Below, in pieces: positions 20,190 to 61,044 of a stretch of DNA of 64,000 nucleotides. Under the pieces are notes generated by a model that searched no databases, was not told the origin of the DNA, and saw nothing but the letters and a program-made list of their open reading frames with translations. Positions within the stretch are counted from its first letter, which is position 1; each line of letters begins with the position of its first letter. The DNA lies in assembly GCA_030650395.1 (NCBI GenBank), contig JAUSDY010000102.1, forward strand, positions 1-64,000, read 5' to 3'. The translations under genes were made by a program, and so were the position numbers. Origin of the DNA: Acidobacteriota bacterium. Lineage in GTDB: Bacteria > Acidobacteriota > Vicinamibacteria > Vicinamibacterales > UBA2999.

Positions 20190-20948
20190 TTGCCGTTTCT
20201 CCGCCTGACCCGCGACCGACGCGGCTTCGAAAACACCTTTCTGATGCACGCCGATCGCCCCGGCGATCGGCCGCGGCTGTTGTACTGGTATCGCACCGCG
20301 CCGGGCATCCTGCTCGGCCGCGCGCCGCTCGACGAAGACGCCATCCGCACGATTGAAGAACAGCATCCGGATATCGACTTCGACTGGCCGGCGATCCTCG
20401 CGCTGAGCGAGGTGATGACGCCGGAAGAAGAAGCGCCGGCGCCGCGCCGCGAACGCAAGGCCAAGCCGCAGAGGCAGAGGGAACGGCGTCCCGACCCGCG
20501 CGCCGCAGATGACGCAGAGCCAAATGCAGCCGCAGATGACGCAGATAACGCAGATCTAAACGCCGCCGCAGATAACGCAGATAACGCAGACGACGCAGAT
20601 AACGCAGACGACGCAGATCGGCTGGCGCCGGCGCATGCGTTCCCCGAAGAAGCGCAGCCCGACGCGCTGGAACACGTCGCGCCGCGCAAGCATACCTATG
20701 GGTTGCTCGAGGAGCTAGTGGGGCGCGAGATCGCGACGCGGCTGCGCGCGCGGTATTCGGAGATCGGCGCGCGCATTCACGAGCAGTACGCCGAGGCGCC
20801 GGTGCGCGATGCGTGGCTGAAGCGGGCGGAGCCGCTCAACCCCGACCTGTGGCTCACGCCCGAGGCCATTCTCGACGGCGTGCGGCGTGCCGATGGCCTG
20901 TTCGATCGGCTGCGGAGCGAGCTGCTCGGTCACGCGTCGCGCGAGTAG
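20190..20948 (+). CDS. hypothetical protein with Asp/Ala/Asn repeat linker
   Basis: This 252-aa protein (TTG start) is not recognised. The N-terminal 75 residues (PFLRLTRDRRGFENTFLMHA, then RPRLLYWYRTAPGILLGR) and the C-terminal ~95 residues (GLLEELVGREIATRLRARYS, LNPDLWLTPEAILDGVRRAD) look like two folded parts. They are joined by a basic stretch and a low-complexity linker of ADN/ADD units. That linker is encoded by a 9-bp repeat (GCAGATAAC family) that elsewhere in the window is intergenic. The 3' end overlaps the convergent rpiB gene by 19 bp. Cytoplasmic, function unknown. Confidence 0.6.
   Translation: MPFLRLTRDRRGFENTFLMHADRPGDRPRLLYWYRTAPGILLGRAPLDEDAIRTIEEQHPDIDFDWPAILALSEVMTPEEEAPAPRRERKAKPQRQRERRPDPRAADDAEPNAAADDADNADLNAAADNADNADDADNADDADRLAPAHAFPEEAQPDALEHVAPRKHTYGLLEELVGREIATRLRARYSEIGARIHEQYAEAPVRDAWLKRAEPLNPDLWLTPEAILDGVRRADGLFDRLRSELLGHASRE
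20511..20622. repeat. 9-bp repeat array (GCAGATAAC / GCAGATGAC / GCAGACGAC) within a CDS
   Basis: About ten degenerate 9-bp units are read in frame as ADN or ADD tripeptides. The same unit makes up the intergenic elements at 44615, 47148 and 50341. Confidence 0.9.
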
Positions 20949-25062: not shown

Positions 25063-25260
25063 TGAATTGCTCCTCCCGATACCGCTACTTAGCAAGAGCT
25101 GTGCCGCAGGCTGATCCGTGAGTCTTCAGAGGAGAGGAACGATTCCGTGCTCTACGCTTGTGCGGGAACGTGTCACTTCTTAAGAAAAGTGTCACTCCAC
25201 CCACACGACCGATCAGCAGGCCGCTTGGATTTCACTTCAGCGATTTGGATGGGGGGCGAA

Positions 25261-25316
25261 GGCAAAAGGCAAAAGGCAAAAGCGTTTCTGCCTTGAGCCT
25301 TCTGCCTTCTGCCTTG
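25261..25316. repeat. 7-bp repeat hairpin (GGCAAAA x3 / TTCTGCC arm)
   Basis: Three GGCAAAA units are followed after a short loop by TTTCTGCCTTGAGCC and two TTCTGCC units, so the array pairs with its own inverted partner. It ends 2 bp before the stop of the large membrane fusion protein (minus strand). It is probably a 3'-end hairpin. Confidence 0.9.
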
Positions 25317-43245: not shown

Positions 43246-43332
43246 GCCGAGGCTGCAGCGTCACGCGGGATTGTCCCGACTGATCTGTTGCTTTCCCTTC
43301 GATTCCCTGGTGCCCGGATATACTTTTTGCGC

Positions 43333-44601
43333 ATGACGAAACCGACCCTCTCCCCCGGTCTTCTTGCGGCTGCGCTCGTCGTGAGCACGGCCGGCACTGT
43401 CTTCGCGCAGCAGGACGCCGCGAACATCGGTACGAAACTCATGAACGACGCCGCGGTCAAAGCCGCGGTGGACACGATTCGCGCCGCTGAGCCGCAGACC
43501 ATCGAGAACCAGATTCGGATTTGCGAGGTCGAGGCGCCGCCGTTCAAAGAGGCCAAGCGCGCCGAGATGTACGCGCGGATGTTTCGCGAGGCCGGCCTGC
43601 AGAACGTGCGCATCGACAAAGAAGGCAACGTGCTGGGCGATCGCCCGGGCGCGCAACCGCGGCCGCGGCTGGTGTTTACCGCGCACCTCGACACCGTGTT
43701 TCCCGAAGGCACCGACGTGCGTGTCAAGCGCGACGGCGCGATTCTTCGCGGCCCGGGCATCGGCGATGATTGCCGCGGGCTCGCGGTGCTGCTGGCCGTC
43801 GTGCATGCGATGAATCAGGCCAAAGTGCAGACGCCGGGCAGCATTACCTTCGTCGGTACTGTCGGCGAAGAGGGGCTCGGCGATCTGCGCGGCGTGAAAT
43901 ACCTCTTCAACGAAGGGATGAAGGGCCAGATCGATCGCTTCGTCTCGATCGACGGCACCGGCCTCGGCATCACGCACATCGCCGTGGGCAGCTTGCGCTA
44001 CCGCGTCACCTTCAAGGGACCCGGCGGCCACAGCTACGGCGCGTTCGGCCTGTCGAACCCGATGCACGCGCTCGGCCGCGCGGTCGCCACGATCTCGCAG
44101 TTCGAGGTCCCGCTCGATCCCAAGACCACCTTCAACGTCGGCCGCATCGGTGGCGGCACGTCGGTGAACGCCATACCGTTCGACGCCTGGATGGAAGTCG
44201 ACATGCGATCCGCCAGCCCCTCGGCACTCGAGGCGCTCGACACGAAATTCAAGCGCGCGGTCGACGAGGCGGTGCGCGACGAGGATGCGCGGTGGAAGAA
44301 GAACGTGCTGTCGGTGGATAAGGCGCTGGTCGGCATGCGCCCGGCGGGTCAGACGTCGGCCAATTCGCCGATCGTGCAGGCCGCCGTATCGGTGACCCGC
44401 GCGCTCGGCTTTCCGATCGCGCTCGACGAAGGGTCAACCGACTCGAACATCCCGATCAGCCTCGGCATTCCCGCGATCACGATCGACGGCGGCGGCCGCG
44501 GTACTGGATCGCATGCGCTGGACGAAGCGTTCGATCCGACGAATTCGTGGATGGGTTCGCAGCGGGCGCTGCTGCTGGCGATTGCGCTTGCCCAGCAATG
44601 A
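43333..44601 (+). CDS. M20-family metallopeptidase, exported
   Basis: The 422-aa protein has a signal peptide (MTKPTLSPGLLAAALVVSTA) and M20 motifs: HLDTVFPEG (metal His and catalytic Asp), RGPGIGDDCRGLAVLL (bridging Asp), and GTVGEEGLGDLRG with the catalytic and metal Glu. A dimerisation lid (VGSLRYRVTFKGPGGHSYGA) follows, and a final metal His in GTGSHALDEAF. It acts as a zinc exopeptidase or deacylase in the periplasm, most similar to peptidase T/carboxypeptidase G2-like enzymes. ATG 43333 is 8 nt from a TATACT box (43319-43324). Confidence 0.88.
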   Translation: MTKPTLSPGLLAAALVVSTAGTVFAQQDAANIGTKLMNDAAVKAAVDTIRAAEPQTIENQIRICEVEAPPFKEAKRAEMYARMFREAGLQNVRIDKEGNVLGDRPGAQPRPRLVFTAHLDTVFPEGTDVRVKRDGAILRGPGIGDDCRGLAVLLAVVHAMNQAKVQTPGSITFVGTVGEEGLGDLRGVKYLFNEGMKGQIDRFVSIDGTGLGITHIAVGSLRYRVTFKGPGGHSYGAFGLSNPMHALGRAVATISQFEVPLDPKTTFNVGRIGGGTSVNAIPFDAWMEVDMRSASPSALEALDTKFKRAVDEAVRDEDARWKKNVLSVDKALVGMRPAGQTSANSPIVQAAVSVTRALGFPIALDEGSTDSNIPISLGIPAITIDGGGRGTGSHALDEAFDPTNSWMGSQRALLLAIALAQQ

Positions 44602-44614
44602 ACGCCGACGCCGC

Positions 44615-44662
44615 AGATAAAACAACGGAGCCGCAGATGACGCAGATGACGCAGATCAATCA
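44615..44662. repeat. 9-bp repeat array, left-arm type (GCAGATGAC units)
   Basis: ACAACGGAGCCGCAGATGAC followed by further GCAGATGAC units and CAA is nearly identical to the left arm of the complete element at 50341-50460. Here the right arm is missing locally but present at 47148-47205, on the far side of the permease gene. Confidence 0.9.
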
Positions 44663-44674
44663 AGGCGGCACACG

Positions 44675-47125
44675 ATGTTTGAGGCTCTGACCCACGATGC
44701 GCACCAGGCGTTTCGGCATCTCCGGCGGTCACCGGGATTCGCGGCCGCTGCGGTACTGACTCTCGCCTTTGGCATCGGCGCGAACGCCGCGATGTTCAGC
44801 GTTCTGAACGCGCTGGTGCTCAGGCCTCTTCCGATTCGAGACCCCCACGGTCTCATCGGCGTCTCGGGTCGAACTGCAAAAGAGCAACTTCGGCTCACGC
44901 CGATCCCTGCCGTCGACGAGCTGACCCGTAACGATGGTCCTCTGCAGAACGTCTGCGGCTACAACGGGGGCGTCGTTCTTGCCGTCGAAGCCGGCGGCAC
45001 ACCGACGCAGGCCATCGGTGCGTTAATGACGGGCCAGTGCTTTCACGCCTTCGGCGTTGCTCCGATCCTCGGCAGACCAATCCTCGATCAAGATGCACCG
45101 CTCAACAGACCGGGCAACCGTGTCGCGGTCATTGGCCACCGGTTCTGGACCCGAATGTTTGGCGCCGATCCAAACGCGCTGGGAAAAACTATTCGCACCG
45201 AAGGCGTTGATCTGACGGTGATTGGCGTGATGCCGCCCGGATTCGGCGGTCTGCACGCGGATGTCGGCGCGGATCTGTTTGCGCCGTTCGACACGATCTT
45301 CCCTGCGCGAACGGATCGCCGTCCCGCGGCAAGCCACATCCTGGCGCGACTTCGTCCGGGCGTGTCACTGGAACAGGCGGCAGCGCAACTCGAGACGCGC
45401 TGGCCGGGCGTGCTCGAGGTCGTGGTGCCAGCGACGCTCTCGCCTGCCGAAAGAGCCGACATGCGCGACGCGCGGCCCAGAGTCGAGCGGATCGGAACCG
45501 GGACCTCGTTTTATCGGGATCGCTACGTGCGTCCGCTCACCATCATCATCGGGTTAACCGGCTCGCTCCTGTTGCTCGCGTGCGTGAATCTCGGCGGTCT
45601 ACTGATCTCGCGATTGGCCGCGCGCGCACCGGAGATCGCCGTCCGGTTAGCGCTTGGCGGGAGCCGGAGGCGAATCGCACAGCAGATGTTGGTTGAGGGC
45701 CTCCTGCTGTCAATGGGTGGCGCGACGTTGGCGATTCCCCTGTCGTTCGCGATCGTAGGGGTGCTGGCATCGTTTCTCCCCAGTGCTCTTGTGGAACGCA
45801 CCGTGACGTTCACTCCCGATCTTGGTGTGCTCAGCGCTACCGCGCTCGTGGGGGTGGTCGTAGGTGCGATGATGACCGCACTGCCCGTTGCGCTTGCCGG
45901 CCGGCAGCAGAAAGCCGCGCACGGTGGATGGAACCGGACCATCGCCGGCACGACGAGCCGCTGGGCGCGAGCAATGCTGGTCGCCCAAGTAGCCCTCTCG
46001 GTCGTCATACTGACCGGCGCAGGACTCTTGATCCGCTCTCTCTATCTGTTGCAAGAGGTCGACCCCGGGGTGCGGCGGCAGGGCGTGGCGATCGTTCGGG
46101 TGATGCCATTGCCGAATGCGTACCGTGATCTGAATAACGCCTCTTACTACCCGGCCTTACTCGATAAGCTCGCCTCGCTTCCAGGAATTCAATCGGTGGG
46201 GCTGGCGCGCATCTTCCCGCGCATGACCACCGAATCTCCGGGACAACCGATTGCGTTCGTGGGTGATGCGCCCGGAGATGCCAGGGCTTACCTGGAAAGC
46301 GCCTCGCCCGCGTATTTCGAGACGTTGGGTATTCCGCTGCTGCGCGGGCGTCTTCCAGCGTGGTCCGACACCGAGAAGTCTCTACAAGTAGCCGTCGTCA
46401 GCGAGAGTCTCGCGCAAGCTCTGGCGTCAGATGGTGACGTCGTCGGCCGTCGCGTCCGCTTCGGCAGCAGTCGCGACCATCAGGACGTTGTCGTTGTCGG
46501 CGTCGTACGAAACGCGACCATGGGGAACCCGCGCCAACCCGCGCTGCCGGTGTTTTACAGGCCAACGCTTCAGGCGGGCCGCTTCGCCAACTATCCGAGT
46601 TTGGTGATCTCGACAGACGGCGACCCGTTGGCGATTGCGCCAGGCGTAAGACAGCTGTTGAAGGAAACCCGGCGTGAGTACGCCCACGACATCGGCAGGC
46701 TCGACGACATTCTCCGGCAAGCGCCCGCAAGCGAGCGAATGAGCGCGACGATCGCCGGCGCGCTCGCGGTACTGGCACTCGCGCTGGCGTTCATCGGCGT
46801 CTTCAGTTTGCTCGCCTACGCCGTCTCACGCCGCACACGCGAGATCGGCGTGCGAGTCGCGATCGGCGCCAATCCTCGTGCTGTGCGCACCATGGTGATG
46901 CGTGAAGGGTTTCTGTTGACCCTCACTGGCGTGGCGATCGGATTACCGGTCGCATTGCTGGCTGCTCGGGCGCTGCGAACAGTGATGTTTGGCGTTTCGG
47001 AATCTGATCCACTGACGTTGGCCGTTACCGTCGGATTCTTCCTCGCGCTCGGCCTCATTGCGGGTATCGTTCCGGCGCGACGCGCCGTCGCAGTCGATCC
47101 GATCGTAGCGTTGAGAGCAGAGTGA
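44675..47125 (+). CDS. ADOP-family MacB/FtsX-like permease
   Basis: The 816-aa protein has the two-module layout of acidobacterial duplicated orphan permeases. The N-terminal MacB core follows a first helix (LTLAFGIGANAAMFSVLNAL), then a large periplasmic domain. The FtsX module near 280-400 contains EIAVRLALGGSRRRIAQQML. A second periplasmic and FtsX module (EIGVRVAIGANPRAVRTMVM) ends with ARRAVAVDPIVALRAE. No ATPase is encoded nearby. AAGGCGG before ATG 44675 may serve as the ribosome site. The gene is bracketed by opposite arms of a 9-bp repeat element. Unlike the next permease it lacks the short N-terminal PadR-linked domain. Confidence 0.88.
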   Translation: MFEALTHDAHQAFRHLRRSPGFAAAAVLTLAFGIGANAAMFSVLNALVLRPLPIRDPHGLIGVSGRTAKEQLRLTPIPAVDELTRNDGPLQNVCGYNGGVVLAVEAGGTPTQAIGALMTGQCFHAFGVAPILGRPILDQDAPLNRPGNRVAVIGHRFWTRMFGADPNALGKTIRTEGVDLTVIGVMPPGFGGLHADVGADLFAPFDTIFPARTDRRPAASHILARLRPGVSLEQAAAQLETRWPGVLEVVVPATLSPAERADMRDARPRVERIGTGTSFYRDRYVRPLTIIIGLTGSLLLLACVNLGGLLISRLAARAPEIAVRLALGGSRRRIAQQMLVEGLLLSMGGATLAIPLSFAIVGVLASFLPSALVERTVTFTPDLGVLSATALVGVVVGAMMTALPVALAGRQQKAAHGGWNRTIAGTTSRWARAMLVAQVALSVVILTGAGLLIRSLYLLQEVDPGVRRQGVAIVRVMPLPNAYRDLNNASYYPALLDKLASLPGIQSVGLARIFPRMTTESPGQPIAFVGDAPGDARAYLESASPAYFETLGIPLLRGRLPAWSDTEKSLQVAVVSESLAQALASDGDVVGRRVRFGSSRDHQDVVVVGVVRNATMGNPRQPALPVFYRPTLQAGRFANYPSLVISTDGDPLAIAPGVRQLLKETRREYAHDIGRLDDILRQAPASERMSATIAGALAVLALALAFIGVFSLLAYAVSRRTREIGVRVAIGANPRAVRTMVMREGFLLTLTGVAIGLPVALLAARALRTVMFGVSESDPLTLAVTVGFFLALGLIAGIVPARRAVAVDPIVALRAE

Positions 47126-47147
47126 TGGCGTGACGCAGTTGTAGGTT

Positions 47148-47205
47148 TAGATCTGTGTAATCTGCGTCATCTGTGGCTGGCTGGATATCTGCGTTATCTG
47201 CGGCT
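47148..47205. repeat. 9-bp repeat array, right-arm type (ATCTGCGTT units)
   Basis: TAGATCTGTGTAATCTGCGT followed by CATCTGTGGC and a second ATCTGCGTTATCTGCGGC matches the right arm of the element at 50341-50460. It follows the permease stop by about 22 bp and precedes the convergent permease stop at 47213. Confidence 0.9.
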
Positions 47206-47212
47206 GTCTCAC

Positions 47213-49921
47213 TCAATCGTCCCTGAGCGCAGTCAGCGGATCAACCCGCGACGCTCGCCACGCCGGCAGATAGCCGGATGATGCGCCCACGACGAGCAAC
47301 GCCAGCATCGCGGCGGCGACCGTTGCCGGGTCGGTCGGGCTGACTTCGAACAGCATCGTCCCAATCAGCCGCGACACCACGACCACGGCAGGCAAGCCGA
47401 TCGCGAGTCCCACCACCACGAGCGTCAGCGACTCGCGGAAGATCATCCAAAGTACGCGTATGCGCGGCGCCCCGAGCGCGAACCGGATGCCGAGCTCCGC
47501 TGTCCGCTGCTTGACGGCATATGACATCAATCCATAGAGGCCAAGACACGCCAGCCCCAGCGCAAGCGAGCCGAGCACCGTCGTCAGCCTCGCGATCAGG
47601 CGCTCCTGCCGCAAGGTGTTCGCGGCGAGGACGTCGAGCGTCGTTACCTGGGCGACGGGCAATCTGGGCTCGACCTCCTGCAGCGCTTTGCGCAGCGCCA
47701 CGCCCGTCGACTCGGGATCGCCGCTGGCGCGCACGTGCATCGTGCCGACATAGGACGGCGTCGAATCCAGCGGATAAAACACCATCGGCACCGCCGATTC
47801 GCGAACCGAATTCACGCGGGCGTCGCGGACGATACCGATGATCTCGACGTCGGGTTGGTCGTAGCCGAAGCGCTGGCCGATCGGATCGCGGCCCTTGAAA
47901 TACTTCTGCGCCATCGCTTCATTGACGATCGCGATCTTCGCGTCGCCGCCGATCTCGCGCGCCTCGAAGTCGCGGCCGGCGACCATCGACATGCCGACCG
48001 TCGGGAAGTAGCGAGGGCCGACGCGGTTCTCCTGCACGGCCACCTGCTCGCCGGGCTGGCTCGTGTAGCCGGTAATCGCGAGGCCGTCGGCGCCCGATCG
48101 GCATCCCGTCATCAGGCCGCACATCGCGATCGTCGCCGACTCCACGCCCGGCAACGCCTCGGCGCGCGCGATGACGCCCTGATACAGCGCCGGTAATTCC
48201 CGGACCTCGTATCCGCCGACGCTCGGATTGACCGCCGCCGAGAGCACGTGCGGCTCGAACCCCAGTGGCAGCGACGCCAAGTTGCCGAAGCTGCGGAGAA
48301 ACAGCCCGGCGCCAACGGCCAGCAACAACGACAGGGCGACCTGCGCGACGACGAGAATCTTCGAGAGGCTCAGCCGCGCGCCGTGAGGCGTGCCGCGACC
48401 GCTCGACTTGAGGGCGGTGGCGAGCGACAGGTCGGTCGCGCGCCACGCCGGCGCGAAGCCGAACAGGATGCTCGTGACCAGCGTGATGATCGCCGTGAAG
48501 ATAAGCACGCGTGTATCGAGGCCGACGGAGAAGGGCAGCGGGCCGCTGTCCTGGCCAATCGTCATGCGCACCAGCAGCTCGCTGGCGAGCGGCGCAATCG
48601 CGAGACCGACCGCGGCCGCGATGGTGCCCAGCAACAGGCTTTCGATCAGCAGCTGGCCCATGACGCGGGTGCGGCTGGCGCCAATCGACAACCGCACGGC
48701 CATCTCACGCTGGCGGCTCGTGGCACGGGCGAGCAGCAGGTTGGCGGTGTTGGCGCAGGCAATGAGCAGCAGCAGCGCCACCATCGCCATCAGGGCGAAC
48801 AGCGGGGTGCGGAACTGCGTGCGCAGCGCGGACGATCCGCGCGAGAACGGCTCGATCGTCAAGCGCCGATCGAGCGTCAACTGCCGTGCGGCGGGATCGT
48901 CGAGGCGATCGGCCTGCTGGAGCAGGATCGGCCGGAAGACGGCGTTCAGAGCGACGACCTCCGGCCCGTCCGCGCGATCGGCGCGCAGCACCAGCTCGAG
49001 CCACCGGAGACCGTCTTGCGGCACCCAGGGCTGCAACATATCCGCGTCGCTGGCGCTGAAGTTCTGCATGTACTTGACGTCGGCCTGCATCATCACAGGG
49101 ATCCACACCTCGACCGGCGACTCGAGCCAGACGCCGGTGAACCCGGAGGGCGCCACGCCAATGATCGTGAACCTTGCGCCGTTCAAGGCCAGGTCGCGGC
49201 CAATCGCGTCGGCCGCGCCGTTGAAGCGCCGCCGCCAGAACGCTTCGCTGATCACCGCCACCGGATGACCGCCGACGGCGCGATCGTCTTCGGGCGAAAG
49301 GAATCGTCCTAGCTGCGGCTGCAGGCGCAGGACGCCGAAGAATTCTCCCGACACCAGCTGCAGGCTCGCCGTGTCGGGCTCGCCCGACGGCAGGCCCGTG
49401 CGGCCGCGCGCGACGCGGCTCATCGCGGCGAGGCCGCGCGGGTCGGGGAACCCGGCGCGCAGCTGCGCGAAGAACGGATAAGAAACGCGCGGCGCCACTG
49501 GCAGCCGTGATTGATACCGCGTCGCGTAGAGATGGTCGGCCTCGGGAATGGGCAGCGTCCGGAACAACAGGGCGTCGGCGACCGAGAAGATCGCGCTGTT
49601 GGCGCCGATACCGGCCGCGAGCGACAGCACCACCACGAACGTGAACCCCGGATTGGCGCGAAGCATGCGGAAGGCGTAGCGGATGTCTCGCAGGCACATC
49701 TCCACGAAAGCCCCGGCGCGCTGTTCGCGGACCTGTGCAGTGACCGAATCCACGCCGCCCAGCTCCAGGGTGGCGGCGCGGCGCGCCTGCTCGGGCGACA
49801 GGCCGGACTGGATTTTTTCGTCGACCAGCAGCGTGTGGACCGCGCGCACCTCGTCATCCAGGTCCTGGTCGACGCGGTCTCGGTAAACAAGATTCCGGAA
49901 CAGGCTACGCAGGCGTGACAT
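47213..49921 (-). CDS. ADOP-family permease linked to a PadR regulator
   Basis: This 902-aa permease begins with a soluble N-domain ([40 protein letters not shown]), typical for ADOP members encoded beside PadR genes. It then has the MacB core ([20 protein letters not shown]), an FtsX module ([20 protein letters not shown]), a second large periplasmic domain, and a final FtsX module ([20 protein letters not shown]) ending [16 protein letters not shown]. It lies 12 bp after the PadR stop and is clearly in the PadR operon. ATG 49921 or 49924 are equally possible. The ATPase partner is not local; substrate unknown. Confidence 0.9.
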
Positions 49922-49933
49922 CATGGCCTAGGC

Positions 49934-50263
49934 CTAGGTCTCCAGCGCCCGCGCCATCGCGAGTGCAATGCGGTTCCACTGGGCCGTTTCCTGGCTCAGC
50001 TGCTTTCGACCCGCGCGGGTCATCTCGTAGTACTTGGCGCGCCGGTTGTTCTCCGACGGTTGCCAATCCGACTCCAGCCAGCCGGCCTCCTCGAGGCGAT
50101 GGAGGGCGGGGAAGAGCGAGCCGGGTTGGACGACGAACGTGCCGCCGGTCATTTGCTCGACGCGGCGCGACACGCCGAGCCCATGCAGCGCGCCGGTGGC
50201 GAGCGCTTTGAGGATGAGCAGGTCGAGCGTTCCTTGGAGCAGGGTGGTACGTGAAGCGGCCAG
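49934..50263 (-). CDS. PadR-family transcriptional regulator (CTG start)
   Basis: The 109-aa protein has the PadR winged-helix: TTLLQGTLDLLILKALATGA, then GTFVVQPGSLFPALHRLEEA, GWLESDWQPSENNRRAKYYE and MTRAGRKQL. The conserved N-terminal helix is only included if translation starts at CTG 50263, because no ATG, GTG or TTG exists upstream in frame. A perfect AGGAG lies 7 nt before that CTG (complement of 50271-50275), so CTG is the likely start. It is cotranscribed with the ADOP permease. A perfect 11-bp palindrome (50279-50308) covers its promoter, implying negative autoregulation. Confidence 0.85.
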   Translation of the reverse strand: MAASRTTLLQGTLDLLILKALATGALHGLGVSRRVEQMTGGTFVVQPGSLFPALHRLEEAGWLESDWQPSENNRRAKYYEMTRAGRKQLSQETAQWNRIALAMARALET

Positions 50264-50278
50264 GTTGGTTCTCCTATC

Positions 50279-50308
50279 GACATTCGATACGAGTTCCTAT
50301 CGAATGTC
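50279..50308 (-). promoter_or_regulatory. PadR operator and promoter
   Basis: A perfect inverted repeat GACATTCGATA - 8 nt - TATCGAATGTC overlaps a minus-strand promoter: -35 TTGACA (complement of 50305-50310), 15-nt spacer, -10 TATCGA (complement of 50284-50289). The ATGT...ACAT symmetry fits PadR binding. The start codon lies about 20 bp downstream. Confidence 0.75.
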
Positions 50309-50340
50309 AATAGGAACGCCGATGGAGGCAGATGAAGAAA

Positions 50341-50460
50341 CAACGGAGCCGCAGATGACGCAGATAACGCAGATCAAAAAAGCGTTTGGTATTTCGAGTA
50401 TTTAGATCTGCGTAATCTGCGTTATCTGTGGCTTCGTTAGTTTTTCTGCGTTATCTGCGG
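50341..50460. repeat. complete 9-bp repeat hairpin (GCAGATAAC family)
   Basis: The left arm (50341-50376, with CGGAGCCGCAGATGACGCAG) and right arm (50402-50460, with GATCTGCGTAATCTGCG) are complementary around a ~25-nt loop. The right arm encodes the last residues PQITQKN and the stop of the neighbouring membrane protein. Confidence 0.9.
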
Positions 50461-51009
50461 CGCATCTCGGAGCTCACGGAATCGCGCGAGCTCTACCGTC
50501 CGTTGCGTGCGCATCGCTCTATCGCTGTAGAGCAACCACACCACAAACGCGATGTGCGGCACGGCGATCGTCCCGAGCTCGACGGGCAGCGCCGCAGGTC
50601 TGGCGAGAAGAACGGGAAGGTAGTTCACGATCGTCGCGATGAAAAAGAGCGGGACGAACAGCGGATGTCCGCCGGCGCCCGGAACGGAGCCCAAGCTCAT
50701 CGCGACGCGCTCCCACGAAGGCACGTCAGACAGCGAACGGCCGGGCTGGCCCTGCTCTTCGTAGAAGACCTGCAGGTATCGTCCGATTCGTTCCGCGCCA
50801 AAATGTAAAGGCCTGATCGCTTCGAAGGTTGCGGCTAAAACGACGAGAGGAACCGCGACCGCGAGCGGATAGGGAAGGAAGGCGAGTACGGCTATGAGAA
50901 GAACGGCCCAAATACCCAGGCCGGTCAGCAACAGAACGGCGCGGAGGCTGCTCCGGGACGCGATGGTCTGTCGAAGGACGAGGTACTCGGCGGATGACGG
51001 CCGATCCAT
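50437..51009 (-). CDS. hypothetical membrane protein, 190 aa
   Basis: ATG 51009 gives a protein beginning MDRPSSAEYLVLRQTIASRS with four hydrophobic segments (AVLLLTGLGIWAVLLIAVLA; PYPLAVAVPLVVLAATFEAI; FVPLFFIATIVNYLPVLLA; ELGTIAVPHIAFVVWLLYS). Its C-terminus (APQITQKN) is encoded by a 9-bp repeat element, so the natural end may have been altered. I do not recognise the family. It is divergent from the carboxypeptidase gene that starts at 51091. Confidence 0.6.
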   Translation of the reverse strand: MDRPSSAEYLVLRQTIASRSSLRAVLLLTGLGIWAVLLIAVLAFLPYPLAVAVPLVVLAATFEAIRPLHFGAERIGRYLQVFYEEQGQPGRSLSDVPSWERVAMSLGSVPGAGGHPLFVPLFFIATIVNYLPVLLARPAALPVELGTIAVPHIAFVVWLLYSDRAMRTQRTVELARFRELRDAPQITQKN

Positions 51010-51046
51010 TAGGGGTCCCAGTCTACTCCAAGAACGATAAACCCTC

Positions 51047-51075
51047 TTGATTCTTGGAGATACTGTGGCTACAAT
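51047..51075 (+). promoter_or_regulatory. sigma70-type promoter of the carboxypeptidase gene
   Basis: -35 TTGATT (51047-51052) and -10 TACAAT (51070-51075) are separated by exactly 17 nt; the start codon follows 15 nt after the -10. Confidence 0.65.
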
Positions 51076-51090
51076 GCCGTCAAGCTGACA

Positions 51091-52170
51091 ATGAGAACGC
51101 CAAACCGCCTCACGAAACTGCTCGTGTGCATGACGCTCGTGGGCGCAGCGTACGTGGCTGTGCCGGCGCCGTCGTTTGCGCAAGGTGCGGCGGCATCGGC
51201 TCCCAAAGCCACCAAGACTCCGGCCCGCGCCACCGGCGCGAAAAAGAAGAAGCCGGCCTACTCGGCCACGAGCGCCCGCAACCGCCGTGCTCAGCTGGCC
51301 AGGGCCCGGGCCGCGGCTCGTGCTCGCGAGCTGCGCGAAGTGCAGACCCCGCGGTTCCGCGTCGACGAGTTCGGCCGCGAAGTGCCGGACGTTCGCGCCG
51401 AAGCCGCCATCATCTACAACCCCGTCACCGGCGAAGTGTTGTGGGAAGACCACGCGCAGGATCAGCGCTCGATTGCCAGCATCACCAAGGTGATGACCGC
51501 GCTGGTGTTCCTCGAAAGCGGCGCCGCCCTGTCAACGCCGGTCACGGTGCAGAAGTCGGACGTGTCGCGCGCGTCGACCACGTACCTGCGCACTGGCTTC
51601 CAGCTTACCGCGGATGAGTTACTGAACCTGCTGCTGGTCGGTTCCGACAACGCCGCGGCCCGCGCGCTGGCGCGCATCTCGCCGTTTGGCTCCGACGGCT
51701 TCATTCAGATGATGAACGAGAAGGCCCGCGCGCTCGGCCTCGACAATACCCGCTACGCCGATCCGTCAGGCTTGATGGCCGAGAATGTCTCGTCCGCCTT
51801 CGACCTGGCTCGCCTCATCTCCTACGCCTCGGCGGACGCGCGCGTCACCGGCATCATGCGCAAGACGTCCTACTCGATGCAGGTCGGCACGCGCACCATC
51901 AGCGCCAACAGCACCAATCAGCTGATCAAGACCGGCGACATCGACGTGCTGGCCGGCAAGACCGGCTTCATCAGCCGCTCCGGCTATTGCCTGGCCACGT
52001 TGCTGCGGCTGCCGCAGTCAGGCCAGCAGGTTGCGGTGGTCGTGCTCGGCGCGAAGAGCAATGCCAGCCGTTTCTGGGAAACCCGCCATCTGTTCAACTG
52101 GATGAGCACGCGCACCAAGGCGCTGCTCGAAGGCGAATTCCAAAACCAATCTCAGCAAGAGCAGCAGTAA
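51091..52170 (+). CDS. D-alanyl-D-alanine carboxypeptidase (peptidase S11, PBP5/6-like)
   Basis: The 359-aa protein has a signal peptide (MRTPNRLTKLLVCMTLVGAA) and a Lys/Ala-rich linker, then the S11 active site: SITK at 130-133 (catalytic Ser130), SDN at 185-187 and KTG at 290-292. It trims the terminal D-Ala from peptidoglycan pentapeptides in the periplasm. The usual C-terminal PBP5 beta domain and amphipathic anchor are missing, and the protein ends in a Gln-rich tail (QNQSQQEQQ), so it may be soluble. The stop TAA touches a 7-bp repeat hairpin. Confidence 0.9.
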   Translation: MRTPNRLTKLLVCMTLVGAAYVAVPAPSFAQGAAASAPKATKTPARATGAKKKKPAYSATSARNRRAQLARARAAARARELREVQTPRFRVDEFGREVPDVRAEAAIIYNPVTGEVLWEDHAQDQRSIASITKVMTALVFLESGAALSTPVTVQKSDVSRASTTYLRTGFQLTADELLNLLLVGSDNAAARALARISPFGSDGFIQMMNEKARALGLDNTRYADPSGLMAENVSSAFDLARLISYASADARVTGIMRKTSYSMQVGTRTISANSTNQLIKTGDIDVLAGKTGFISRSGYCLATLLRLPQSGQQVAVVVLGAKSNASRFWETRHLFNWMSTRTKALLEGEFQNQSQQEQQ

Positions 52171-52249
52171 GAGTTCAGAGTTCAGAGTTAAGAGTTAAGA
52201 GTTAAGAGTTAAGAGTCTTTTTCTTAACTCTGCACTCCTAACTCTGCAC
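52169..52249. repeat. 7-bp repeat hairpin (AGTTAAG units) between convergent genes
   Basis: Left arm AGTTCAG x2 and AGTTAAG x4, loop CTTTTT, right arm CTTAACT, CTGCACT, CCTAACT, CTGCACT. The left end meets the carboxypeptidase TAA. The right arm encodes the last residues VQS and the stop of the FdhE-like gene. It is probably a bidirectional terminator. Confidence 0.92.
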
Positions 52250-53074
52250 TCGCTTCATCACCGCGGCATCCAGCGGTAGCGTCACAATCGAATCGGCATA
52301 CGGTAAGAGCGGGCGCGACGCGTGCCTGGCGTCGAGCGCTTTGATGTAACGCCCGCACGGTTTGCAGATCATCACGCGATAGATGCCGTCGGGCGTGGCC
52401 ATCGACGTGATCGTCCGCCGATCGTCGTTGCCGCAGTACGGGCACGCGATCGGGTCGAACGGCCAACGCACGTGGCATCGCCCGCAGACCAGCAGCCGCG
52501 CGCCGCTCGAGGTGATCACCGAAAAATCCGGCTCGGCCGCGCACATCGGGCAGGTGCGGCCTTTCCATTCGTCCAGGCTGACCCGCTGCTGCAGCACTTC
52601 AACGGTGCGCTGCAAGTACGGGCGCGCCGCCCAGCTCAAGACTTCATCGAGCATCTCGATCGGCGGGAGCGGGGTGGCCTCGAACCAGCGCCGCATGGTG
52701 TCGGGTAATTCGGCGCTGCGTCCCACCGCGTGCAGCGCGAGCGACGTGTCGCCGTCGACGGCGTCGTGGCGACGGAGGATGTCGGCGATCTGCCGGATCA
52801 GCAGCCGCACGTCGTTCCATTCGAATGCGATCTGATCGAAATCGAGCAGCGGCCGCCCGGCCGCCAGACGTGCGGCGAGCGATTCGGCGCTCGCCTCGAT
52901 CCAGGGCGTGCTCAGTCGGCCCTGGACGCGGCGGACCGCTTCGATCAATCCAATCTGGAGAGCCGCCGCCGGGCCCAGTTCAGGCTGGCGTTCGGCCAGC
53001 GCCCTGAGCTCAGCGATGTCACGCGGCGCCGGGCGCGATCCGCTGGCGGGAGGCCCAGTCACGGCTAAGATCAT
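52238..53074 (-). CDS. fdhE: FdhE-like formate dehydrogenase accessory protein
   Basis: This 278-aa protein shows the double zinc-ribbon of FdhE: CPMCAAEPDFSVI, LLVCGRCHVRWPF, CPYCGNDDRR and MICKPCGRYIKALDAR, four CxxC pairs in the expected order. FdhE acts on Fe-S/molybdopterin formate dehydrogenases before export. No fdh genes are in this window, so its partner lies elsewhere. ATG 53074 (MILAVTGPPASG) is right: frames further upstream would translate the 7-bp repeat array that separates it from glgA. The last residues VQS and the stop are encoded by a repeat arm. Confidence 0.82.
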   Translation of the reverse strand: MILAVTGPPASGSRPAPRDIAELRALAERQPELGPAAALQIGLIEAVRRVQGRLSTPWIEASAESLAARLAAGRPLLDFDQIAFEWNDVRLLIRQIADILRRHDAVDGDTSLALHAVGRSAELPDTMRRWFEATPLPPIEMLDEVLSWAARPYLQRTVEVLQQRVSLDEWKGRTCPMCAAEPDFSVITSSGARLLVCGRCHVRWPFDPIACPYCGNDDRRTITSMATPDGIYRVMICKPCGRYIKALDARHASRPLLPYADSIVTLPLDAAVMKRVQS

Positions 53075-55068: not shown

Positions 55069-56027
55069 GCGAGCGGCAGGTCATCATCATCGGCTCCGGC
55101 CCGGCCGGGCTGACCGCCGCGCTGTACGCGGCGCGCGCCAATCTCAAGCCGCTGGTGATCGAGGGCATCGATGCGGGCGGCCAGCTGATGCTCACGACCA
55201 TGGTCGAGAACTGGCCCGGCTATCGCGACGGCATCATGGGCCCCGACCTCATGGCCGAACTGCGCGCCCAGGCCGAGCGCTTCGGCGCCGAGTTCATCCA
55301 GGGTGACGTCACCGCCGTCGATTTGTCGAAGCCGCCGTTCAATGTCTCACTGGGCAAAACCAACTACCTCGCGCACACGCTGATTCTCGCCACCGGCGCA
55401 TCGGCCAAGTGGCTCGACCTCGGCGTCGACAAGAAGTTGTCCGGCCGCGGCGTCTCGACCTGCGCCACCTGCGACGGCTTTTTCTTCAAGGGCCTGCCGG
55501 TCGCGGTGATCGGCGGCGGCGACACCGCGATGGAAGAAGCGATCTACCTATCGAAACTGGCCACTTCCGTCACCGTGATCCACAGGCGCGACACGCTGCG
55601 CGCGTCGAAGGTGATGCAAGACAAGGCGATGTCGATTCCCAACATCTCGTTCCTGTGGGACACCGAGGTCCTCGACATCAAGGACGTCGACAAGGGCGCG
55701 GTCTCGTCGCTCGTGCTGCGAAACCTCAAGACCGGCGAGCGCAGCGAGCTGCCGATCGACGGCGTGTTCATCGGCATCGGCCACACGCCGAATACGGTGC
55801 TCTTCAAGGGCCAGTTGGCAATGCACGACAACGGCTACCTGAAGACGCACGACGGCTCGCGCACCAGCGTGTCAGGGGTGTTTGCGGCAGGAGACGTGCA
55901 GGACCATGTCTATCGCCAGGCCGTGACCGCGGCCGGGTCAGGCTGTATGGCGGCCATTGATGCAGAGCGGTTCCTCTCGGGCACTCTCCACGACAGCAGT
56001 GCCGCACACCTTGTAACTAACAGTTAA
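55065..56027 (+). CDS. trxB: thioredoxin reductase (NADPH)
   Basis: This 320-aa flavoprotein has an FAD-binding IIIGSGPAGLTAALYAARAN, the redox-active CATC at 133-136 (STCATCDGFFFKG), an NADPH site IGGGDTAMEEA with HRRD, and the C-terminal FAD motif VFAAGDVQD. It transfers electrons from NADPH to thioredoxin. GTG 55065 overlaps the trxA stop. The final codon and stop TAA lie in a 7-bp repeat array (AGTTAAG), so the C-terminus is set by the repeat. Confidence 0.95.
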   Translation: MSERQVIIIGSGPAGLTAALYAARANLKPLVIEGIDAGGQLMLTTMVENWPGYRDGIMGPDLMAELRAQAERFGAEFIQGDVTAVDLSKPPFNVSLGKTNYLAHTLILATGASAKWLDLGVDKKLSGRGVSTCATCDGFFFKGLPVAVIGGGDTAMEEAIYLSKLATSVTVIHRRDTLRASKVMQDKAMSIPNISFLWDTEVLDIKDVDKGAVSSLVLRNLKTGERSELPIDGVFIGIGHTPNTVLFKGQLAMHDNGYLKTHDGSRTSVSGVFAAGDVQDHVYRQAVTAAGSGCMAAIDAERFLSGTLHDSSAAHLVTNS

Positions 56028-56152
56028 GAGTTCAGAGTGCAGAGTTAAGAAGAAATACGCTCTTAACCCTTAACTCTTAACCCTTAACTCTTAACCCTTA
56101 ACTCTTAACCCCTTAACTCTTAACTCTTAACTCTAACTCTGCACTCCTAACT
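56023..56152. repeat. long 7-bp repeat hairpin (AGTTAAG / CTTAACT) between trxB and mnmA
   Basis: Left arm AGTTAAG, AGTTCAG, AGTGCAG, AGTTAAG; loop AAGAAATACG; right arm of more than ten CTTAACC/CTTAACT units ending CTGCACT, CCTAACT. The arms are very unequal, showing unit-number change. It spans the whole gap between convergent genes. Confidence 0.92.
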
Positions 56153-56155
56153 CCG

Positions 56156-59363: not shown

Positions 59364-59365
59364 AA

Positions 59366-59460
59366 GAAGGCAGAAGGCAGAAGGCAAAATGCAGAAAGCA
59401 GAAAGCCAGGCGGCGAGCAGCAGGAATTCGTTCTGCCTTGAGCCTTCTGCCTTCTGCCTT
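59366..59460. repeat. 7-bp repeat hairpin (GGCAGAA / TTCTGCC)
   Basis: Left arm GGCAGAA x2, GGCAAAA, then decayed units; about 35 nt of loop; right arm TTCTGCC-TTGAGCC-TTCTGCC-TTCTGCC. The right arm is almost identical to that at 25290-25316. It fills the gap between bactofilin and the next gene. Confidence 0.92.
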
Positions 59461-60960: not shown

Positions 60961-61044
60961 AAATAACCAATAACCAATAACCAATAACCAAGCAGCAACA
61001 ACCAAAGAGTGATTTGGTTATTCGCAATTGGTTCTTGGTTATTA
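60961..61044. repeat. 7-bp repeat hairpin (AATAACC / GGTTATT)
   Basis: Left arm AATAACC x4 with two decayed units; right arm GGTTATT, CGCAATT, GGTTCTT, GGTTATT. It starts 3 bp after the adenosyltransferase stop. The same unit occurs singly at 18678-18705. Confidence 0.92.

Follow-up and report, generated by a model that had tools for sequence, protein, structure and literature searches.

Inward-facing arms of a 9-nucleotide-repeat hairpin element around an acidobacterial permease gene, and similar arms at genes for the predicted nuclease GxxExxY

MITEs and REPINs are short, multi-copy, inverted and non-autonomous, and the arms described here share these properties; they differ in being tandem arrays, in having a predicted PD-(D/E)XK protein as partner rather than a transposase, and in that no target duplication is seen (none clean by eye at the junctions compared, in relatives that have diverged). 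Rickettsia palindromic elements are repeats that enter coding sequences in frame, and the in-frame arrays reported below are similar. A different kind of likeness is offered by the intervening sequences of 23S rRNA that carry an S23 ORF, lie in helix 45 and are excised by RNase III, and whose mobile origin is discussed in the relevant section of the published account (PMC4990558). As far as that section describes them, they share with our case a long inverted repeat whose loop contains an ORF. Our arms, by contrast, are tandem 9-mers at an intergenic site and enclose ADOP or GxxExxY. Rfam, applied at gathering scores to the window (the whole analysed stretch of 64,000 nucleotides), finds two tRNAs and no rRNA, and the 23S location is not shared.

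Intergenic heptamer repeats occur in Xanthomonas and Nostoc, with convergent inverted pairs in Xanthomonas (PMC4692102), and TAACTGA repeats in Beggiatoaceae (PMC4679880). They resemble our arrays as short tandem units found mostly between genes; they differ in that their units are of 7 nt and that the parts of the two papers which treat them name no cognate protein, whereas here the unit is of 9 nt and goes with GxxExxY. Palindromic units of the REP/BIME type bear a GTAG or CGTC tag at one end, according to the pertinent part of PMC3733652. Such an identity was considered and set aside, as the arms carry neither tag and their outer ends, by eye, read GCCGCAGAT.

The family unit is CRCAGATNN, 9 nt long. 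With up to three mismatches allowed, the window has 25 matches to CGCAGATNACGCAGAT; 100 shuffles gave 2.88 on average and never more than 8. In the whole genome (G000 below; Cn denotes a contig, Lnnn a locus and G001 the sister species, the closest congener at this locus) exact motif matches number 40, against none for a reversed-pattern control, and matches with up to two mismatches 194, against 10. Since nine bases make three codons, arms could sit in frame inside ORFs, as does the first of the following features of the window.

20504-20618, + strand: CRCAGATNN-family array, in frame inside ORF 20190-20948, where it reads (ADN/ADD)n
43288-44601, + strand: M20-type peptidase gene (Pfam PF01546 and PF07687), left neighbour at the ancestral junction
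44607-44664, + strand: left arm L1, with outer unit GCCGCAGAT (44610-44618), a spacer, then GCCGCAGATGACGCAGATGACGCAGATC
44675-47125, + strand: ADOP1, ADOP-family duplicated permease of 816 aa, the bracketed gene
47146-47205, - strand: right arm R1, facing L1 and made up of two repeat blocks
47213-49924, - strand: ADOP2, second MacB_PCD/FtsX permease gene (PF12704 and PF02687), convergent with ADOP1
49934-50173, - strand: PadR-like regulator (PF03551, 2e-16), start codon ambiguous
50325-50380, + strand: L2, left arm in the complete short-loop element, repeat units at 50350-50374, direct repeat of L1
50381-50400, no strand: short loop of the complete element
50401-50460, - strand: right arm R2, reaching into the 3' end of X338
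50437-51453, - strand: X338, stop codon inside R2, right neighbour at the ancestral junction

ADOP1 belongs to TIGR03434 (684.6 bits against a cut-off of 622.3), and X338 has no Pfam match at E 0.001. The original prediction had L1 and R1 facing inward around an ADOP gene and a complete short-loop copy at 50341-50460. These positions were found as predicted, and the complete copy has a folding energy of -73.6 kcal/mol (z -10.8); to be added are the extra outer unit of L1, the two blocks of R1, and the presence of ADOP2 and PadR between R1 and the complete copy. Upstream of PadR, positions 50272-50315 hold a 21-nt inverted repeat, perhaps the PadR operator.

Comparison of the arms indicates how the block might have been assembled. 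Over 29 shared nt, L1 and R1 are 90% complementary; identity is 84% between L1 and L2 (58 nt) and 94% between R1 and R2 (33 nt). Local scores for the six arm pairs are 77 for L1-L2, 73 for R1-R2, 60 for L1-R2, 55 for L2-R2, 46 for L2-R1 and 43 for L1-R1. The two arms on either side of ADOP1 are thus the poorest pair of the six, and this argues against their being the halves of one hairpin that was simply split, with the reservation that the score differences are small. The scores would fit an integration at the left arm that left L1 and L2 as direct repeats, and they would fit equally well two copies of the element, one of them with ADOP1 in its loop. GC3 of ADOP1 (0.714) is the lowest among ten genes compared, seven others having 0.83-0.89; as low values are also found for X338 (0.728) and for a histidine kinase (0.752), the figure is weak evidence of foreign origin. 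Outside G000, the best match to ADOP1 among the 162 genomes searched in the order is 58% identical.

The state of the junction in relatives was followed by searching 60 genomes, G000 included, with the 7.2-kb stretch. Thirty loci were fetched, 26 of them M20 loci of relatives, each with about 1.5 kb or less beyond the match. ADOP1 and ADOP2 have no match in the fetched DNA of these 26 loci, and one of the right-hand neighbours, X338 or DacA, is present in 24 of them (L066 and L071 show neither). In G001, which has 86% DNA identity at this locus (L047), the matches to M20 and X338 end about 50 bases apart, and the junction is occupied by a short hairpin, GCCGGAGATGACACAGATG ... CATCTGTGTCCTCTGCGGC, folding at -55.4 kcal/mol (z -7.9), whose outer ends are those of L1 and R2 to within a few bases. 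As its units are degenerate, L047 yields no arm to the strict pattern, and the hairpin was spotted by reading. At the same junction G004 has another hairpin and G036 a CACGAAG repeat. The sister species therefore has a short-loop hairpin of the same build at its M20-X338 junction, and G000 has about 5.8 kb extra there, comprising ADOP1, R1, ADOP2, PadR and L2. Most likely, the element was at this junction before G000 and G001 separated.

These findings largely agree with the expectation that a relative would have the same junction with a short-loop element and no permease; G001 has one, with degenerate units. The idea that a gene was captured in the loop gains from this hairpin and loses in another respect: the gain amounts to about 5.8 kb and not to one gene, and L1 and L2 may equally be read as direct repeats. 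Capture of a single gene in the loop was dropped as the sole account, for the gain also includes PadR, another permease gene and one more arm. ADOP1 is most likely a passenger that arrived with the larger block, and not the element's own gene. ADOP genes were likewise rejected as the usual cargo, for inverted flank repeats accompany 1 of 20 long ORFs in ADOP loci (direct repeats also 1 of 20, score at least 40), and none of 11 ADOP1 homologues is bracketed by the CRCAGATNN family. Two homologues (L384 and L385) have loose motif matches inside the gene. An ADOP gene from another genus (L381) is bracketed by an inverted 8-nt repeat resembling AATCGGGT.

It might be argued that solo arms fell by chance on either side of ADOP1 and that the bracket is a coincidence. 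Solo arms are indeed common: among the 46 strict arms in the fetched G000 stretches, which were chosen partly from the first 100 listed of the 194 loose matches, 12 are solo, 16 belong to short-loop pairs, 7 lie within predicted ORFs, and for 11 the facing arm is 250-7000 bases off (for some by the loose pattern only). Arms also stand downstream of two other ADOP genes (L116 and L117) with no strict partner. In a hand count over G000, G001, G008 and G036, pairs at most 250 bases apart were inward in 17 cases and outward in none, whereas pairs 250 bases to 6.5 kb apart were inward in 5, outward in 1 and same-direction in 9; the far-apart pairs show no clear or significant inward bias, and chance could yield such counts. 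What makes coincidence unlikely at this locus is the sister species, where both halves lie close together at the junction with nearly identical outer boundaries, and where a short-loop element is found at three of the four G000 brackets.

These four long brackets with strict arms on both sides are the ADOP1 locus and one each on C35, C37 and C9. The C35 bracket encloses a GmrSD-like gene in two overlapping frames, its C-terminal part below the cut-off of its family; the C37 bracket an ORF slightly below the DUF2007 cut-off; and the C9 bracket a GxxExxY gene. In G001 the corresponding flanks are 7 (C35), 20 (C37) and 123 (C9) bases apart, with short-loop elements at C35 and C37 (one weak arm each) and a CACGAAG hairpin instead at C9. 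The short-loop elements of G001 at the ADOP1 locus, C35 and C37 thus each include one or two degenerate arms. The C9 bracket is shared by G004, while G003 and G007 lack the CRCAGATNN family there. It follows from the G004 copy that C9 is old and no new gain of G000, and G001 may have lost it. At C35 the gene content varies among relatives: G008 has DUF1801, and G004 has DUF2161, an AAA protein and others. In either genome only the left arm is seen. Other genes between opposite arms, for which the original prediction had called, thus exist in G000 (GmrSD-like, DUF2007-like, GxxExxY); the far-apart pairs, the solo arms and the ADOP1 homologues show that this is no general rule.

The same brackets bear on a technical explanation, namely that L1 and L2, short and nearly identical over much of their length, caused unrelated pieces of a draft genome of 180 contigs to be joined. 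We regard such an artefact as very improbable, given that the same kind of split recurs at three other loci of G000 and that repeats such as L1 and L2 are shorter than the usual long assembly k-mers.

Another proposal was that the hairpins act as bidirectional terminators or protectors of mRNA ends, selection keeping an arm at each end of the gene as the border of a transcription unit. The very stable folds (z -7.9 at the G001 junction and z -10.8 for the complete copy) and the location of R1 between convergent genes are consistent with this. Against it, L1 and R1 are 2.5 kb apart, 7 of 46 arms lie inside predicted ORFs, and most of the ADOP genes tested have no such arms. On balance we find this proposal a poor candidate, somewhat less credible than coincidence.

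A partner gene for the arms was pointed to by two brackets, those of C9 and of G008:C7, both enclosing GxxExxY (PF13366, TIGR04256). The gene of the latter locus (L162) is the only GxxExxY gene found in G008 and lies between left-type (>) and right-type (<) arms. The whole arrangement (G008:C7:74170-75347) consists of five tandem left arms at a spacing of about 58 bases, then the GxxExxY gene, then a right arm. At L157 and L196, further long inverted repeats of different sequence lie inside the arms around GxxExxY genes.

Within the order, 55 PF13366 matches were collected, of which 8 fragments or weak matches were omitted, 47 tested and 46 scored. The best repeat between their 700-base flanks reached a score of at least 40 in inverted orientation at 28 of 46 loci and in direct orientation at 6, whereas other genes of G000 gave 4 of 91 for each orientation, ADOP1 and ADOP2 being among the four with inverted flanks. 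Scores above 37 were obtained for 29 of 47 true pairs, against 15 of 300 pairings across different loci.

The association extends well beyond the order. A query from the GAT-class subfamily, to which the window's repeats belong, gave 573 matches in named genomes; the best 80 come from Verrucomicrobia, Planctomycetota, Bacteroidota, Proteobacteria, Chloroflexi, Acidobacteria, Spirochaetes and others, and 74 of them had enough flank to be scored. Among these 74 of the best 80, inward arms are present on the left at 57, on the right at 58 and on both sides at 51, and reversed arms at 14, 11 and 5, respectively; in control stretches 1000-1700 bases out, inward arms on both sides occur at 0 of 56 and any single kind at no more than 2. 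By score (at least 40), the same 74 loci give 43 inverted and 23 direct repeats. One motif is common to these loci, which raised the mismatched-pair control for this best-80 set (46 of 300 pairs reached score 40); hence the oriented-arm count with its control stretches. Downstream of the GxxExxY domain, the median distance from the domain end to the outer edge of the nearest unit pair of the right arm is 39 bases (74 loci, from the best 80 of 573), and many GxxExxY C-termini can be read as translated arm, NLRESAKSADD for example. Inward arms of the CRCAGATNN type are, then, the usual flanks of the GxxExxY gene, which encodes a predicted PD-(D/E)XK nuclease, in many phyla.

Of 72,556 plasmid records, 8 have a relative of the GxxExxY nuclease; phage records have none, and three stretches in viral contigs have one 28-nt arm sequence. 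PADLOC matched neither GxxExxY nor S23. In the open-licence PMC literature we found no report of GxxExxY with 9-mer arms and nothing relevant on the repeat unit sequence.

The assignment of GxxExxY to the PD-(D/E)XK nucleases is based on a structural model and on conserved residues. The structure, predicted with confidence (pLDDT 94.2), matches PD-(D/E)XK proteins, among them SSO0001 (Z 9.8), which we take to be a Cas4 protein, and the Holliday junction resolvase Hjc (Z 7.3, where values below 8 are weak evidence). By sequence, the PDB gave no match for GxxExxY at E up to 1. Residues D72, E82 and K84 are invariant in 40 GxxExxY sequences; the core fold with D ... E-x-K is present, and the protein is predicted to be a nuclease.

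Repeat unit and protein have changed in step. When the unit classes of the 36 loci counted (3 'other' and 8 unlabelled loci left out) are placed on a tree of 47 GxxExxY domains, 5 changes are needed, the minimum possible being 3; shuffled labels needed 18.7 on average and came as low as 5 in 0 of 200 trials. Labels had been assigned by hand ahead of the tree building, that of L203 from separate data, and those of L198 and L204 are doubtful. The GAT class, which includes the window's arms, forms one side of a branch with support 100/100, and the GAA class one side of a branch with support 100/99; GAG and AAG need 4 changes each. The class of the repeat unit thus follows the nuclease tree.

The window's arms face inward and have at least two CRCAGATNN units each, as those of the class do. 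As the gene between them is ADOP and not GxxExxY, they can be at most a non-autonomous relative of the GxxExxY 9-mer hairpin element, and the lack of a GxxExxY gene in the ADOP1 bracket counts against reading the locus as such an element. With this in mind, the account that seems to us fairly probable is that the arms represent the non-autonomous version of a hairpin element which, when complete, has a GxxExxY gene between inward 9-nt arrays, that the extra DNA entered by way of the element, and that the nuclease drives its spread. Entry could have taken place by integration at the left arm, L1 and L2 being left as direct repeats; alternatively, insertion into the loop combined with a second copy of the element might have produced the same arrangement. 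The nuclease would recognise the repeat units or the hairpin, and in this way might drive both the spread of the element and recombination between arms. Three of these steps are inferred: the element moves, its arms are a substrate of the nuclease, and recombination between arms brought the block.

A parallel may exist in the S23 genes, which encode four-helix bundles (PF05635; L216-L245). Of 30 loci fetched, 29 were tested (L244 omitted) and 27 scored, with flank repeats of score at least 40 inverted at 20 and direct at 2. The units, by eye, are mostly of 7 nt and differ from locus to locus. In the open-licence PMC literature nothing was found that pairs S23 with heptamer repeats. The window itself has five heptamer arrays with a nearby inverted partner, at 25258-25315, 52168-52251, 56018-56153, 59365-59460 and 60962-61043; they resemble the arms around S23 genes with a loop that holds no gene, the count being an uncontrolled one. 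Five of 12 heptamer rows in the window have no partner.

Taken more broadly, GxxExxY nucleases may drive a widespread class of mobile hairpins with inverted 9-nt arrays that coevolve with the nuclease; S23 would drive a parallel class with units mostly of 7 nt, intergenic short tandem repeats would be empty copies, and recombination between arms would gather passengers such as ADOP1. We put this forward tentatively, with our doubts slightly the stronger. Short tandem repeats with units of 7 to 9 nt between bacterial genes have been on record with no known cause, as in the portion of PMC4692102 devoted to them. One such family is now tied to a specific nuclease family across phyla, repeat and protein covarying, and at the locus described here an element of this kind seems to have made room for a transporter gene. 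The idea of the nuclease as driver and that of gene capture thereby become testable, and the bracket around ADOP1, together with the arms of the same kind around GxxExxY genes in many phyla, hints at a little-noticed kind of mobile element.
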